A stretch of 64,000 bases of DNA from a bacterium A37T11 (GTDB taxonomy: Bacteria; Bacteroidota; Bacteroidia; Sphingobacteriales; Sphingobacteriaceae), in contig FOBR01000003.1 in NCBI GenBank assembly GCA_900109895.1, forward strand, positions 124,001 to 188,000, read 5' to 3'. Position numbers and translations under genes: made by a program. Under the pieces are notes generated by a model. The model was not told the origin of the DNA. It ran no database searches and saw only the letters and a list, made by a program, of their open reading frames with translations. This document shows, one piece after another, positions 46,700-53,100 of the stretch (positions are counted from its first letter, which is position 1; every line of letters starts with the position of its first letter).

Positions 46700-47191
46700 T
46701 TAGCTTATTGGCTTACGAATCCATTTCCAGTATAACCACAACAGGACCAACAGTGGTAATATGAGCCACCAGCTATTTGTGCCCAGGCTACGGCTGGTTT
46801 GGCTGGTGTGCTGAGTTGATTGTTCTTGGTGCTGGAGGTTTTCCTGCAAAGAATCACGCGCGGTAAATAGGACGGATTGGCTGCTGTCCCTAATGACAAT
46901 CTGATGTTGTCTTCGCCCTGATAACAGGATCTGGGCATTACTGCCACGGATCCCGCTATCTGGAGAAATGCTGTATGGTCCTTCGGATAGGATCAGTATT
47001 TGGAAAGAGAGACTGTCAGTTTGCAACTGTTGCTTCCATCGGATAGCTTGCTCTTCGGCACGCAGGCTAGTAAGTTGCCGCTGCACAGTCGATGAAGCCG
47101 ATTGTTGGGTAGCTGTCTTCAGCCGTTTGCTTTTATATAGACTGCAGCTGCATAACAGCAGGAACAGACAAGGTGTTATTTTTCGAATCAT
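46700..47191 (-). CDS. lipoprotein with C-terminal TM helix, unimolecular-spanin-like
   Basis: A 163-residue protein starting at ATG 47191, which overlaps the CHAP stop as ATGA. The N-terminus is a signal with lipobox (FLLLCSCS; modified Cys at residue 16). A Gln/Ser-rich middle section with helical potential follows. Near the C-terminus is one TM helix (WWLILPLLVLLWLYWKW, about residues 140-157) and a short basic tail KPIS. Outer-membrane lipid anchor plus inner-membrane TM in one chain is the topology of phage unimolecular spanins. I recognise no sequence family. It is the last gene of the cassette. Confidence 0.6.
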   Translation of the reverse strand: MIRKITPCLFLLLCSCSLYKSKRLKTATQQSASSTVQRQLTSLRAEEQAIRWKQQLQTDSLSFQILILSEGPYSISPDSGIRGSNAQILLSGRRQHQIVIRDSSQSVLFTARDSLQENLQHQEQSTQHTSQTSRSLGTNSWWLILPLLVLLWLYWKWIRKPIS

Positions 47192-47712
47192 TTGTTTATC
47201 CAATTAGCTACTTTATAAATACTATGCACCGACCTTCGTTTTCGGATCACCGCATTATCGGCGTTTCCTTCTACGGTAATGATATAGTCATCGGTCCTTG
47301 TGTCGATAAAACCCACATGACCAATTCGTTTGAGTGATGGGAAATAGATGCCAAAAATATCGGCCCTGGAGATATGACTCATTGCGTCTCCCCGGCACCA
47401 CACGACCCGTTTATCTGGAAACAGGGCCGGACACCAAGGATTGCGGGGGTTGTCCACCCCTGCTTTTCCCAAGGTCCAGCAAACAAATGAGGCGCACCAA
47501 TTATGGCCGGGACCCAATTTTGTATACCGTAGGTATTCCTCTACCCGGGGCCCGTCATTATGCCCAGATGCCTCTTTCACACCGAGTTCTGCAAGGTATA
47601 TTTGTGGGACCACAGCACGCTTATCCGGGCTTAAAGTACCGCGCTTAGTGTAGCCACAAAAGCAAACAGCAAAGACAGGTACAAGCAGAGGTAAATAACG
47701 ACTTTTTGCCAT
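47188..47712 (-). CDS. CHAP-domain peptidoglycan hydrolase (endolysin-like)
   Basis: A 174-residue exported protein with a short hydrophobic N-terminus (LPLLVPVFAVCF). The CHAP domain shows AELGVKEASGHNDG, catalytic Cys73 in HNWCASFVCW, His132 in IGHVGFID, and the polar residue in VEGN (148-150). These are the Cys-His-Asn/Glu residues of amidase or endopeptidase CHAP enzymes. The gene overlaps the holin-like gene by 82 bases and the spanin-like gene by 4. The position suits a phage endolysin or a domesticated cell-wall lytic enzyme. Confidence 0.8.
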   Translation of the reverse strand: MAKSRYLPLLVPVFAVCFCGYTKRGTLSPDKRAVVPQIYLAELGVKEASGHNDGPRVEEYLRYTKLGPGHNWCASFVCWTLGKAGVDNPRNPWCPALFPDKRVVWCRGDAMSHISRADIFGIYFPSLKRIGHVGFIDTRTDDYIITVEGNADNAVIRKRRSVHSIYKVANWINK

Positions 47713-47996
47713 GATAAGAGGGTTTTAAAAGTGTGTTCAAAAAATATTTCCTGATAGGTGTCCAAGACCGGCCATTGCTGGCGAATGATGGGCCCGGTAA
47801 GAGCCATGAAGGTTAATACCGCCAACACGGTTAATGGAATAGCTGACAGTACGCCCGGGTCGATGGGTGCTGACGTGACGTCGAGTCCCCGCAACACATA
47901 CTGAGAGGCCCAGTATAAAAGTAAGCTTATGCCCAAGGCGAGCGTCAGCACATATTTCCTTAAAAAATCTGAAATTTGAATGAACCAATACATCAT
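47631..47996 (-). CDS. three-TM holin-like membrane protein
   Basis: A 121-residue protein with three predicted TM helices at about 15-34 (YVLTLALGISLLLYWASQYV), 48-68 (VLSAIPLTVLAVLTFMALTG) and 97-121 (VVIYLCLYLSLLFAFVATLSAV). Size and topology are those of class I holins. There is no recognisable sequence family. Its 3' end overlaps the CHAP gene start by 82 bases, an arrangement typical of compact lysis genes. An ATG at 47993 is an alternative start. Confidence 0.55.
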   Translation of the reverse strand: MMYWFIQISDFLRKYVLTLALGISLLLYWASQYVLRGLDVTSAPIDPGVLSAIPLTVLAVLTFMALTGPIIRQQWPVLDTYQEIFFEHTFKTLLSWQKVVIYLCLYLSLLFAFVATLSAVL

Positions 47997-48065
47997 TGAA
48001 AAAATTTAAAATTTATGGATGAAGAAAGGATGGTCGCCACAAAAAGACAACCATCCCATTTCTAA

Positions 48066-48713
48066 TTAAAGTATAACCACAGCACTTACATACGTACTAT
48101 TGGCCAATTTACTGCCATCGCGCCTCACAAAACTGATGTACACGTGCACGGTATCGCCCGTAAAATCGGTAGGCAACGTCATTTCCTGCTCGGCGGTTTC
48201 GCGTATCGTATCTCCCACCGTATACAGGTAGCGGCTTTTGGCTTCGTTGTAGACCAGCAATATTACCTGGTCGTCCCCCATGGCGTTGGTCTCCGTCAAG
48301 GCATTGTTAACCCAGGTTACATGCAGGGTTGCCGCAGCCGTAGATTCCGCCGCCGCATTGGTGGATGGCGGCACTGGCCCCTCACTGATCTGCACTTTTG
48401 GATAATCGATCACAAAATCGGGGAAAACGCCCGTGATTGCTTTTTTGATCGTGTACTGCACAGCTACGTTATAGCCAGTGAGCCGTTGTTTGGCCTGGTT
48501 CTTAAAACCAAGGTTGACCAAAGAACTGATCGGTTTCATAAAATTGACCGCCAACGCAAACTTCAGCTGTTGTTCCTGCTGCGCCTGGCTAAAACTACGG
48601 TTGCCCTTTCGCGGCAAGCTCCGCATGTAATCGATGCCACGCCAGTGGCTGCCAACTACACTTCCAACTTTTCCGGAGAATGAACCTAAGATTCCCCTTT
48701 CATAACTTCCCAT
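48066..48713 (-). CDS. DUF6266 family protein
   Basis: A 215-residue protein of the Bacteroidota-specific DUF6266 family, recognised from the N-terminus GSYERGILGSFSGKVGSVVGSHWRGIDYMRSLP and the middle FKNQAKQRLTGYNVAVQYTIKKAITGVFPDF. The C-terminal 90 residues look like a beta sandwich (ATLHVTWVNNALTE; DTVHVYISFVRRDGS). No signal peptide is seen. The function of the family is unknown. Here it precedes a holin-like/CHAP/spanin-like trio on the same strand with a 69-base gap, so it may be a secreted or released cargo or a structural protein. Confidence 0.75.
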   Translation of the reverse strand: MGSYERGILGSFSGKVGSVVGSHWRGIDYMRSLPRKGNRSFSQAQQEQQLKFALAVNFMKPISSLVNLGFKNQAKQRLTGYNVAVQYTIKKAITGVFPDFVIDYPKVQISEGPVPPSTNAAAESTAAATLHVTWVNNALTETNAMGDDQVILLVYNEAKSRYLYTVGDTIRETAEQEMTLPTDFTGDTVHVYISFVRRDGSKLANSTYVSAVVIL

Positions 48714-49020
48714 AAAAAATAATTAAAAAGTAACGCCATCAACGGGTGGTTTTTCCTTGGCCACGCTACGCCTTTGGCTCTACAAACGTAGGGTTGATTT
48801 TTGTAAAAACATATAGATCAAATGATTATATCTGGTTATTGCCGGACTTTGCCGGAGATTGCCGGTACCTGGCTCACCCTTGCAGCTGCGTCATTTTACA
48901 AACTGACTATGGAATATTTAACCTGACTTAAGATAAATGTAGGAAACGCGACGGCAACATGCAGGAAAATCGCAGGCCAGTTGACGGGGAGATGAGGGAA
49001 AAGATAAAAATTAGGAAAGG
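48714..49020. promoter_or_regulatory. intergenic region with TTGCCGG iterations
   Basis: No gene is evident in this 307-base divergent region. TTGCCGG occurs three times at exactly 10-bp steps (48839-48845, 48849-48855, 48859-48865), which places the copies on one face of the helix. This is a candidate binding site for a regulator of the DUF6266 cassette or of the sigma gene. No promoter was assigned. Confidence 0.4.
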
Positions 49021-49464
49021 ATGACGATTACAAATACACCAAATATTACTTACCTTAGCGGCATGGAACCGCGCACAGATGAAGAACTCTTGTCAGCTAT
49101 CGGTGAAGGACAGTATACTGCCTTTACCGAGTTGTACAACCGTTATTGGCGCAAGCTGTTTGTAGTGGCCAGCAATAAATTAAAAGACAGCGCTGTGGCG
49201 GAAGAACTCACGCAGAATATTTTTGCCGATATTTGGGCGCGACGTGAAAACCTGCAAATCCACAACAATTTCCAAGCATATCTGGCCGTAGCGTTGAAGT
49301 ATAAAGTTATCGAGCTGATGCCCGAGAACAGCATTGACGCCGTTATACTGAACAAGAAAGCTCCCACAATCAAGAATGGGATAATTCCATTAAACAATGT
49401 ATTGATTATGAAGTATTTATTTGGAAGAGATCGCTATACGGCTGTCGCTGTAAACAATGATTAG
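49021..49464 (+). pseudogene. truncated ECF (RpoE-type) sigma factor gene
   Basis: An open frame of 147 codons. From ATG 49063 it reads MEPRTDEELLSAI, then AFTELYNRYWRKLF and AEELTQNIFADIWARRENLQIHNNFQAYLAVALKYKVIE, which is sigma region 2 as in Bacteroidota PUL sigma factors. After KVIE the sequence changes to unrelated, low-similarity residues and stops; region 4, needed for -35 recognition, is absent. No FecR-like anti-sigma gene follows. The gene was probably broken by deletion or recombination upstream of PUL2. Confidence 0.75.
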
Positions 49465-50181
49465 CAAGCCCAAATTCGTGCTACTCCAGGACAAAGTCTT
49501 TTTCTGGAGATCGGTATGAAAACTTGCGTTAATCAGTTGGATGAGACAGTGGTCCAGGGTTTGTCTACGTCCCGAAGAATGAGTACAGGCTGCATTACCA
49601 CTGTATAGAGCAAATATTTAGCAAATCAACCCGTCATGAATCCACTGCTGGCCCTAAGAGGGGTTGGTCCCGGGCCTGGATGCGGCAGCAATCGTGTTAG
49701 GCGACCCGAAAGCAATCGTGGTATTTAAACGCCTCTTGATTATCGGATTTTTGATCTGGTATTTTGTATGGGGAGTATTCAAGCAAACAAAGGACTGCTA
49801 GAATAAGGTCGTCTAAATAGTTATTATTTTTAGTCTTTTTTTAATCTATTAGTGTATTTAAAGGTCATCCGCCATATGACCTTTAAATGATAATTTTGTC
49901 TATGTTTTTGTAAGATTCGTCCATTTATAATAAGCTGGATGGCCATTACTTTTGTTTCGTTAATTATGTGTAACCAATTAACCTAGTTTGCAATTAAGTA
50001 TGTAATAATGAGAGAGAAAAAACTGGATGCTCTTGTCCCGAAAGCTTGAATATAAATGATTTATTTCTTTATAAACTTTTTATAGAACCTGTTAACTGCA
50101 ACTTTTAAAATTGGATATGCCTGACGGTTGGGCTTCCGGATACTTTTTTGGCCAGATTTATGACCCTTTATACTAAATTAC
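49465..50181. other. PUL2 upstream region with gene remnants and a strong stem
   Basis: There is no intact gene in these 717 bases. 49636-49801 holds a frameshifted small ORF (ATG AAT CCA, then, in the next frame, LDAAAIVLGDPKAIVVFK and a TM-like IIGFLIWYFVWGVF, stop 49801). A perfect 13-bp inverted repeat (49856-49868 with 49876-49888, 7-base loop) is probably a terminator. TACTTTTG at 49947-49954 is an exact -7 match and would give the susC message a leader of about 220 bases. Confidence 0.5.
49856..49888. terminator. 13-bp inverted repeat, probable bidirectional terminator
   Basis: A perfect 13-bp stem with the 7-base loop CCGCCAT, arms ending in A/T tracts. It separates the sigma remnant from the PUL2 promoter. 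The weak U-tract makes the terminator call moderate. Confidence 0.55.
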
Positions 50182-53100
50182 ATGAAAATAAAGCTTATTC
50201 ACTATGACGGATGCATTGAAATACAGCCTTTTTTGACGAGTAGGATCTTACTGTATGCACTGATGGTTTATTTGTGCTTATTCAAGTCAACTGTTACGTA
50301 TTCACAGCAGGCCTCCGAATTAACAGTTACCGGATCCGTAAAAGATACATCCGGAACGGTATTGACAGGCGTAAGCATTTCTGCATTGAATAAAACAGGG
50401 TCAAAAACGCAGACTGACGAAAAAGGATCATTCGCAATTATCGTTCCTGCCGGTACGGTATTACAATTTACGTATGTGGGTTATGCAGAACAAAAGATAG
50501 CCGTTAGTGCCGGTAAGCAGCGCCTGGATGTATTGATGGTCCCTGAGTTGACCGCGGTGGATGAAGTCGTGATTACCGCCTACAGCCAGAAGCAACGCAA
50601 AGAGGCCATTGTTGGGTCAGTCACCTCGGTCAAACCCGCCGATCTGAAGATACCGGCCAGCAACCTGACCAATGCATTGGCGGGACAGATCGCTGGCGTA
50701 ATCGGTTTTCAGCGCTCCGGACAGCCCGGACAAGATAATTCACAGTTTTTTATTCGCGGTGTCACCACGTTTGGATATAAGCAAGATCCCTTGATCCTCA
50801 TTGATAACGTCGAGCTTTCTACCAATGATTTGGCCCGTCTCAATGTGGATGACATTGCAAGCTTCGTGATCCTGAAAGACGCCAGTGCCACTGCACTTTA
50901 TGGCGCCCGAGGAGCTAATGGGGTTATCCTGGTGAGTACCAAAGAAGGGAAGGAGGGGAGCGCCAAAGTAAATGTACGGTCGGAGGTCTCCTCGTCAGAA
51001 TCTGCCCGTACGCTCGATTTAGTCGATCCGATTGAATACATGAACCTCTATAACGAGGCTTCGCTCACCCGCAACCCGCAGCTACCCTTGCCTTTTTCGC
51101 CCACCAAGATCCGCAATACGCAGGCCACCATCGCCGCGGCACCCGGCAGCAACCCGTACGTATATCCAGCCGTAGACTGGCTGGACCTGTTGTTTAAGAA
51201 ACGGGCAATGACACAGCGTAACAATATGAGCATCAGTGGTGGCGGCTCGGTGGCCCGGTATTTTATTGCCGGTGCCTACAATGTAGACCAGGGTGTGCTG
51301 AATACAGATGTGCGCAATAACAATGAGAACAATGTCAACTTTAAGAATTACCAGCTGCGCTCCAATGTCAATGTGAACCTTACCAAAACTACGGAAGTGA
51401 TCATCCGGCTTTCTGGCAATTTCAGCGAATACAATGGACCCATTACGACCGATGGTTCTTTTGCTTCAGACCTCTATAACATTGCGATCCACACCAGTCC
51501 GGTCTTATTCCCGGCTTATTATCAGCCCGATGAAGCCAACCTGAATGCCCGACATATTTTATTTGGGAATAACGGAACCGCAGGTGGGACCAGTAGTAAC
51601 AACATCTTGTACAACAATCCCTATGCGTCGTTGCTGAGAGGGCACAAAAATTATTCGGAGTCGCGTATGTCTGCACAGTTTGAACTCAACCAGGACTTGA
51701 ACTTCGTGACCGATGGGCTTAAGTTTAAAGGGATCTTTAATACCAACCGCTACTCGTATTTTGATTCGCAGCTCGCATACAATCCATTCTATTACAACAT
51801 TAACAACTACGATGAGCAGACAGGCCAATATTCGCTACTGTGGCTCAACCCAATGCCAACTGGCAATAATGTGGCCACCGAGTATCTTAATTACAGGCGG
51901 AGTGAACCCAACGCCAATACGTTTTTATACTTACAAACGGCACTGGATTATGGCCGCACGTTTGGCGACCATACGATTAGCTCCACACTGATCGGTACCA
52001 TGCAGTCAACGCTCTATTCCAGTGCAAAAGACCCGCAGCTCGGCATTACCACGCTGCCTTATTCATTGCCTTTCAGAAACCTGGGTCTGGCAGGACGGCT
52101 GACCTATTCGTATAAGAACCGGTATTTTGTCGAAGGTAATTTTGGATATAACGGCTCCGAGCGCTTCTCAAAGGAGCATCGTTTTGGGTTTTTTCCGACC
52201 ATTGGAGCTTCATGGGTGGCTAGTAACGAAGATTTCTGGGATAAAGACAGCTGGTTTACCAAACTGAAGATCCGCGGCAGCTATGGGCTTGTCGGAAATG
52301 ATGCGATCGGCGCCCAACGGTTCTTTTATCTGTCAGATGTGAACCTGGCAGACGGTCCAAACTATGCTCAGTTTGGATTTGGTAACCAATATGAACGCAA
52401 AGGGGTATTCATCCGAAGTTATGCCAATGACAACATCACTTGGGAAACTTCGCGGCAGACCAACGTGGCCGCGGAGGCGACGTTTTTTGGTAGCCTGAAT
52501 ATGGTGGCAGAATTTTACAAGAACCACCGTTATAACATCTTACGCGAACGGGATATTCCATCCAGCGAGGGTTTGGAATCCTCAGTGAGCACCAACCTGG
52601 GCTCGGTTGATTCCAAAGGCATGGATTTGTCGGCAGACTATAGCAAGAACTTCAGCAACGGGTTTTGGGCTTCATTCAGGGGCAACTTCACCTATTCCAC
52701 CAACCGGTACACCTACATTGAAGAACCCAACTATACGGAACCCTGGCGGCATTTTATCGGGCAGCCCATCGGCCGGCAATACGGCTACATTGCTGAGCGG
52801 CTGTTTGTCGATGATCAGGAAGCCCGTAATTCACCTTCACAGATCTTGAGCGTGACCGACGCCTGGGGTACCACCACGCAGGGGATCCTTCCGCAGGGCG
52901 GGGACATTAAATACCGTGACGTAAACCACGATGGGAAGATTGACAACCTTGACCTGGTATTCATGGGTTACCCTACTACGCCTGAAGTGGTGTATGGTTT
53001 TGGTTTCTCTACCGGGTATAAAGGGTTTGACTTTTCGGCATTCTTTCAGGGACAAGCCCGGGTGTCGTTCTTCATTGATCCCTGGAAAATGAGCCCGTTC

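Follow-up and report, generated by a model that had tools for sequence, protein, structure and literature searches.

A repeated cassette of phage-type lysis genes with FnIII-domain partners and phased upstream repeats in Sphingobacteriaceae

Why does a Bacteroidota bacterium carry what resembles a phage lysis module with no recognised virion genes beside it? The question is raised by a 64,000-nucleotide stretch of the genome of bacterium A37T11 (contig FOBR01000003.1, family Sphingobacteriaceae), hereafter the window, in which four minus-strand open reading frames (ORFs) occupy positions 46700–48713, bearing out the four same-strand genes described in an earlier sequence-only reading. The first gene (48066–48713) encodes a DUF6266 protein of 215 amino acids (aa), our proposed cargo, which matches PF19781 with an E-value of 2e-51 (174.7 bits against a cut-off of 23.4, covering model positions 3–197 of 198). 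The second (47631–47996) encodes a holin-like protein of 121 aa with several transmembrane (TM) segments and with Asp39 and Asp46 conserved in a family alignment of 14 copies; the third (47188–47712) encodes a predicted CHAP peptidoglycan hydrolase with Cys73, His132, and a hydrophobic N-terminus; and the fourth (46700–47191 from an ATG, or 46700–47203 from a TTG start) encodes a lipoprotein that resembles unimolecular spanins and in which inspection confirmed the C-terminal TM helix. The overlaps noticed earlier are also present: the TM and CHAP genes share 82 nucleotides out of frame (47631–47712), an arrangement retained by the bacterial copies and by many of those from phages, and the ATGA at 47188–47191 contains both the stop codon of CHAP and the start codon of the lipoprotein gene. 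With a probability of about 0.55, we read this cassette as one of some twenty copies of a domesticated, phage-derived lysis cassette, similar to type 10 secretion systems (T10SSs), that would release a cytoplasmic cargo with an FnIII domain.

The cassette, its copies, and its phage relatives

The window cassette is one copy of an element that is repeated about twenty times in its genome. In the assembly (5.09 Mb, 60 contigs), 25 places are matched by the window CHAP protein, and 27 stretches around these places and around lipoprotein matches were examined. Nineteen loci at scattered chromosomal sites, including the window, have a full-length CHAP gene with an open frame; the remaining places hold fragments, including a pair at contig ends, one interrupted by two in-frame stops, and one in which the CHAP end is fused to a lipoprotein. 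Cys73 and His132, singled out by the sequence-only reading, are invariant in all 19 full-length copies. Taken alone, the window copy matches PF05257 weakly (20.5 bits, Pfam cut-off 26) and TIGR02594 below its cut-off (E 3e-9), and 11 other CHAP places in the genome pass the Pfam cut-off. Export of the enzyme probably proceeds through its hydrophobic N-terminus. TM and lipoprotein paralogs adjoin most of the 19 copies: a profile search finds the lipoprotein after CHAP at 18 loci (the fused one counted), and the 14 TM paralogs that were aligned share a GPLLRxxDPT-like motif and two invariant aspartates. A protein of approximately 210 aa is found after CHAP at the 18 other loci; in the window copy this protein is absent and DUF6266 takes its place, on the upstream side. 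The small membrane protein, previously described as having three TM segments, has two in the window copy by a crude hydropathy rule, the expected three being present in most relatives (67 of 69 named and 11 of 14 own-genome copies).

The cassette extends well beyond this genome. Within the same bacterial family, 138 of 399 genomes, spread over 13 of 25 genera, encode a member of the CHAP family by profile search (E ≤ 1e-25); the copy numbers per genome from this survey are lower bounds, because at most seven candidates were scored per genome. At E ≤ 1e-10, the CHAP family was found in 15 of 60 genomes, including this one, and in none of the 23 among them that belong to other bacterial families. 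Of the relatives of the locus, 138 in number, we took the best 80 as named loci, of which 79 are counted here, no CHAP ORF having been called in the Sinomicrobium locus; the matches are mainly in Sphingobacterium, Parapedobacter, Olivibacter, and Pedobacter, with one each in Daejeonella and Sinomicrobium. The 79 loci encode the TM protein in 72 cases, the lipoprotein in 70, a DUF6266-like protein in 42, and an FnIII-type protein in 28. The trio is thus conserved, and the linkage to DUF6266 proposed by the sequence-only reading recurs without being exclusive. That reading is supported in part, and none of the outcomes it had named as refuting it was observed. The most common order is that of the window, a DUF6266-like protein followed by TM protein, CHAP hydrolase, and lipoprotein. 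Assembled across relatives, the full layout is an HTH_17 gene (HTH, helix–turn–helix), a phased repeat array, a protein of approximately 210 aa without a signal sequence (either DUF6266 or the second, FnIII-domain type), the 3-TM protein, the CHAP hydrolase, and the lipoprotein. The TM/CHAP overlap is exactly 82 nucleotides in all 69 named loci in which a TM gene was called and in 12 of 14 own-genome pairs, which is far from chance.

The trio itself is probably phage-derived, as judged from its relatives in IMG/VR. Fifty loci there encode CHAP relatives (26–46% identity), and the trio is found in phage contigs; the 73 proteins scanned from five of these match terminase, tape-measure, baseplate-hub, and endolysin families, as judged from the 25 listed of 44 PHROGs matched. 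The viral CHAP relatives belong to the same TIGR02594/CHAP endolysin family, and part of their loci share the TM-CHAP-lipoprotein order; viral TM/CHAP pairs overlap by 82 nucleotides in 10 of 20 cases and by 79 in six. Unlike the cassette, the 50 viral loci, each viewed over up to 20 kb of its contig, contain neither DUF6266 nor a short FnIII cargo; one 611-aa protein in them matches an FnIII profile. Against phage records, the window CHAP protein has 285 matches, none of which reaches 60% identity; most of the listed ones are tail-lysozyme domains with identities of approximately 31%. Carriage of the cassette on phages or plasmids was considered and rejected: none of 50,697 phage records and 72,556 plasmid records has a DUF6266 relative, plasmid records contain no CHAP relative at 1e-15, and single-protein scans of IMG/VR, which reach close relatives only, returned none for two DUF6266 proteins and one FnIII-type protein.

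Around the 19 own-genome cassettes, we scanned 86 of 133 selected flanking proteins (five from the window copy; those left out are mainly the longest). No terminase, portal, capsid, or tail protein is among the 23 PHROGs matched, which are sigma factors, regulators, one transposase, one DNA-binding protein, one modification enzyme, and families of unknown function. Pfam matches include FecR, sigma factors, SusD, and housekeeping enzymes among the 25 of 57 families listed. Within these scanned flanks, the earlier statement that no virion genes lie nearby holds for recognised virion families at all 19 copies.

Two small sequence elements are associated with the CHAP genes. Short palindromic elements of the form GTAGAGACGCA...GCGTCTCT occupy in-frame positions within CHAP loops or lie directly next to the CHAP gene, exact in L068 and L065 and variant in L064 and L069 of this genome; the exact pattern has three sites genome-wide, all at two such cassettes. 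Six CHAP genes (L063, L065, L069, L070, L071, and L073) share, in the same loop, a second element whose translation is LTTYNLQRTT.

Repeat phase follows cargo type

The two candidate cargo families have no evident sequence similarity, and both are predicted to end in an FnIII-like domain. The window DUF6266 protein (pI 9.0) has neither a hydrophobic signal segment nor a TM segment by hydropathy and consists of a basic, glycine-rich N-terminus, two helices, and a C-terminal FnIII-like domain (residues 112–215). Its AlphaFold model has a pLDDT of 87.2, with values of 50–69 for the first 40 residues, and its fold matches effectively concern residues 112–215, a β sandwich for which FnIII domains score highest (Foldseek E 6.9e-5; VIA-align Z 12.4, rmsd 1.9 over 93 aligned residues). 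Among viral models, the best matches are phage tail and other proteins (E 2.6e-4). In the model of an FnIII-type protein (pLDDT 90.6), the N-terminal half is helical and FnIII domains are matched by the C-terminal half; 17 of the 18 own-genome proteins of this type lack a hydrophobic segment, L061 being flagged at residue 15. FnIII is a common fold that by itself reveals no function.

Counts of DUF6266-like proteins require a qualification. Our DUF6266 profile drifted and also took in a protein type of approximately 195 aa with a similar N-terminal motif, so that the DUF6266-like counts for named loci, HTH genes, arrays, clusters, and correlations include this type; by a text rule, the 44 cassettes concerned comprise 13 of the 195-aa type, 21 that are clearly PF19781-like, and 10 that are neither. 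Proteins of the 195-aa type carry the DUF6266 N-terminal SGKxG motif and stand in the cargo position (L118, L120, L141, L148, L156, L172, L174, and others); the one member scanned (L120) has no Pfam match. They are possibly a third cargo family.

New in this analysis are an HTH gene and repeat arrays upstream of the cassettes. Of 98 cassettes (19 from this genome, 79 named), 69 are preceded on the same strand by a gene that our own profile identifies as HTH_17-like: 38 of 44 with a DUF6266-like protein, 31 of 46 with an FnIII-type protein, and none of the eight without cargo (L117, L119, L123, L125, L128, L132, L142, and L161). The HTH_17 profile, run on eight of these genes, scored three above its cut-off, three more weakly, and two not at all. 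In two FnIII-type cassettes, a LytTR gene lies directly upstream of the HTH gene (L143:3035–3487 and L144:2909–3361); the L143 protein matches PF04397 and the L144 protein looks alike by eye.

At many loci, a degenerate array separates the HTH gene from the first cassette gene. We scored 650 bp upstream of the first gene for self-matches at lags of 8–30 against dinucleotide shuffles, taking z > 5 as a signal, in 97 regions (one more had no upstream sequence). The 44 DUF6266-like regions have a lag of 11 in 29 cases, 22 in six, 21 in none, and no signal in nine; the 45 FnIII-type regions have a lag of 21 in 20, 10 in two, and 11 or 22 in none. After similar regions were collapsed into 75 clusters, the separation of 11/22-bp DUF6266 arrays from 21-bp FnIII-type arrays is complete (21:0 versus 0:17, Fisher p 3.5e-11). 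The eight cargo-less regions have a lag of 14 in three, 21 in one, and none in four; the period-14 repeats of L125, L128, and L142 lie near the first gene. Controls gave no signal at 57 of 60 locus ends and in 243 of 250 regions upstream of other genes, the ten control regions with a signal having a lag of 21 or 22 four times. Nearer the gene, a number of loci also have three to four direct repeats of period 10, in some loci directly upstream of a TAnnTTTG-like element (placed by eye outside the window).

The same association holds where the cargo gene stands alone. Among 20 DUF6266 stretches from the same family, the first six of which come from four genomes lacking a CHAP match, seven have the trio, 12 do not, and one has no DUF6266 ORF called; seven of the 12 without the trio have an 11- or 22-bp signal above z 5. 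At 20 DUF6266 loci outside the family, a lag of 11 is best in 11 and exceeds z 5 in five, a lag of 10 exceeds z 5 in one, and a lag of 21 is never best. Three of four FnIII-type genes in other families have their best lag at 21, with z 17.1 in one and below 5 in two; two solitary FnIII-type genes of the A37T11 genome have an HTH gene upstream and no array signal. Repeat phase thus follows cargo type with or without the trio, and the array appears to be a more constant companion of the cargo than the trio is.

We infer that the arrays are DNA operators. Core words were derived for 17 DUF6266-type rows, one of which (L186) is a run of N, the other 16 dividing into eight with both orientations and eight with one; of 11 FnIII-type rows, L166 is a run of N. 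Structured RNA as a common function of the arrays was rejected: L147 folds far better than its shuffles (z −8.1) because its array has two convergent halves, and L182 does so more weakly (z −2.6). A partial precedent is BldC, each protomer of which binds a 9-bp repeat (PMC5859096). Like BldC, the cassette HTH protein is a small MerR-like/HTH_17-type protein encoded beside direct repeats that vary in number; unlike for BldC, the phases here are 10, 11, or 21 bp, the units are often more numerous, the protein has an additional N-terminal part, and its binding is putative.

Comparisons among loci indicate which parts travel together. Thirty-nine locus pairs share at least two flanking genes, and in 13 of these the flanks are at least 94% identical. 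Across the 13 pairs, CHAP identity ranges from 45% to 100% (median 76); the HTH protein is 91–100% identical in seven, missing in three, and without a match although both loci have one in three (L130/L149, L124/L136, and L146/L172); and the cargo is 88–100% identical in eight and 36% identical in L124/L136. Because cassette parts differ at sites with near-identical flanks, either part is replaceable, CHAP and lipoprotein more often, and CHAP proteins of 81–91% identity can accompany unrelated HTH genes and arrays. The HTH protein covaries with the cargo (partial r given CHAP 0.87 and 0.72), and CHAP varies apart from both (CHAP–cargo 0.09 and 0.29). Exchange of CHAP and lipoprotein while HTH and cargo more often stay would be expected of a trio that serves as a generic release module. 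In a Mantel test of 69 cassettes, HTH and array distances correlate (r 0.55; 0.53 given CHAP; 0 of 2000 permutations), with r 0.19 among the 1800 pairs with CHAP identity below 65%. The HTH protein as sole binder of the arrays was not supported for the FnIII type, its correlation with the array being 0.01 with cargo and CHAP held constant. For DUF6266-type cassettes the data point to the HTH protein as the putative array binder, and for FnIII-type cassettes they point to the cargo; since neighbouring stretches of DNA are inherited together, such correlations are by themselves no proof of binding.

The window copy shows a reduced version of this upstream region. On the minus strand, a candidate promoter element TACGTTTG (48783–48790) of the form TAnnTTTG, which we take to be the Bacteroidota-type promoter motif, lies 77 bases before the DUF6266 start; upstream of it are 2.8 copies of a 10-bp direct repeat, CCGGCAATCT (48838–48865, by TRF), and a degenerate period-11 stretch placed by eye (48925–48970). 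The 650-bp region has its best lag at 11 with z 5.4, a weak array, and no trace of an HTH gene was found in 48601–50400. Where that gene usually sits, there is a plus-strand sigma-factor-like ORF (49021–49464) that looks cut short by eye. The window copy may have been cut by a rearrangement, with this ORF as a possible scar; lacking its own HTH gene, it would depend on another regulator or be misregulated.

Release and its alternatives

How might such a cassette work? The HTH_17 protein, together with the repeats that precede the promoter, would turn it on, after which the cargo would accumulate in the cytoplasm. The 3-TM protein might make the inner membrane permeable; the CHAP enzyme, for whose export its hydrophobic N-terminus would suffice, would cut peptidoglycan; and the lipoprotein with its TM helix could disrupt the outer membrane in the manner of a unimolecular spanin. 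A fraction of cells would lyse and release DUF6266, much as T10SS cassettes release their cargo; release of DUF6266 and the holin and spanin labels are proposed by analogy.

The analogy is with lysis cassettes reported for Yersinia entomophaga (PMC10847048), for Salmonella ChiA (PMC10109510), and in PMC13284979. Like T10SSs in general, the cassette combines genes for a phage-type membrane protein, a peptidoglycan hydrolase, and a spanin, without virion genes, beside a protein that has no signal sequence; by gene order and scanned flanks, the holin-like, hydrolase, and spanin-like genes stand together outside prophages. Unlike T10SSs, it occurs in about twenty copies per genome, its CHAP enzyme has its own hydrophobic N-terminus, its spanin-like protein is the product of one gene, its putatively exported cargos have FnIII domains, it is associated with HTH_17 genes and phased arrays, and its hosts are Bacteroidota. 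For the lipoprotein, PMC6139136 describes the unimolecular spanin gp11 of phage T1 as having an N-terminal lipobox, a C-terminal TM domain, and no periplasmic cysteine, which is absent from 58 of 58 unimolecular spanins. The window lipoprotein likewise has a lipobox (LCSC, one residue off the strict consensus quoted there), a C-terminal TM helix, and no cysteine after that of the lipobox, features that suggest a similar function; it differs from gp11 in a glutamine-rich periplasmic part with a PDSG motif. In scans of Pfam, PHROGs, and NCBIfam, it has no significant family match.

Several observations weigh against this reading. The window TM protein likewise matches no family in those three databases, and it stops directly after its last TM segment; holins, small TM proteins that time and form inner-membrane lesions, usually have a charged C-terminus. 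By crude rules, lipobox and C-terminal TM helix are both found in only 12 of 18 own-genome, 41 of 70 named, and eight of 11 viral lipoproteins. On the regulatory side, the HTH gene is present at only 13 of the 19 own-genome cassettes, 23 of 45 FnIII-type regions have no significant array, and only five of 18 own-genome FnIII-type regions have a lag of 21. As for the cargo, none was recognised at nine of the 79 named loci (in one of them, L149, DUF6266 is present with a slightly wider view), and the trio was found at none of the 20 DUF6266 loci in 16 genomes outside the family, which also argues against an exclusive linkage; two of these loci, L325 and L334, have a contig end within 600 bases of the gene. 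Since DUF6266 and FnIII-type proteins often occur without the trio, release by the trio cannot be their sole mode of action.

In a different role for the cargo, the DUF6266 or FnIII protein would be an intracellular regulator or sensor that binds its own array, a single protomer to each 11-bp turn or a dimer to each 21 bp. The trio would then be a later-added suicide output for programmed death or abortive infection. We consider this unlikely, though the most serious competitor. Array period follows cargo type at loci where neither trio nor HTH gene was found (L275, z 10.7; L284, z 6.8; L292, z 8.2; L337, z 5.8; and the FnIII-type L340, z 17.1), the DUF6266 N-terminus is basic (median charge +7 in the first 40 residues), and FnIII-type arrays vary with the cargo (0.47) and not with the HTH protein (0.01). 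However, DUF6266-type arrays and proximal repeats vary with the HTH protein (0.40 and 0.51) and not with the cargo (0.10 and −0.09), FnIII-type proteins have no basic N-terminus (median +1), the FnIII domain is not a usual DNA-binding fold, and a PADLOC scan of 10 proteins gave only weak or generic HTH matches. The best of these was mad1 (1.2e-8) for one HTH protein, with two weak matches for another, and identification with a known defence system was rejected.

Interbacterial antagonism, in which the CHAP protein would be an exported toxin, the lipoprotein or TM protein its immunity factor, and the FnIII protein an aid to delivery or adhesion, is improbable. Rapid turnover of CHAP and lipoprotein would then reflect an arms race, consistent with loci at the same site with 95–100% identical flanks in which CHAP identity falls to 45–55% and lipoprotein identity to 39–53%; against it, the trio occurs with the same overlap in phage contigs, phage-contig CHAP proteins match endolysin PHROGs, and no toxin-delivery system was noticed beside the own-genome copies among the Pfam families listed. 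Least probable by far is a decayed prophage end, which the sequence-only reading had kept as its alternative: the trio is homologous to phage lysis modules, and the PHROGs matched by flanking proteins include a transposase and, for a few of them, families of unknown function, but 19 copies share one order, intact frames, and catalytic residues with no recognised virion genes in their scanned flanks, DUF6266 was not found in the phage and plasmid records, and IMG/VR yielded no close relative of two DUF6266 proteins or of one FnIII-type protein.

Beyond the release reading of the window copy, we tentatively propose, at somewhat less than even odds, a multicopy Bacteroidota system in which two FnIII families each have their own phased-repeat code, one helical turn for DUF6266 and two turns for the second type, often with an HTH_17 partner, and in which units in Sphingobacteriaceae would have captured interchangeable phage lysis trios to become about twenty separately addressed lysis-release switches. 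The literature we searched, which excludes most subscription papers, contains no description of such multiple switches, no paper naming DUF6266, and nothing joining Sphingobacterium, endolysin, and tandem repeats or Sphingobacteriaceae, CHAP domain, and holin; for 11-bp repeats in Bacteroidota, no title among the loosely matching papers listed was relevant. For DUF6266, a family without an assigned role, the analysis supplies a fold prediction, a set of genomic partners, and a regulatory signature, each of them testable, and the correspondence of repeat phase with protein family gives a clean rule, open to a DNA-binding test. To our knowledge, T10SS strains have one or two lysis cassettes, a number that about twenty would exceed; if release is real, one bacterium would lyse part of its population through many separate switches.

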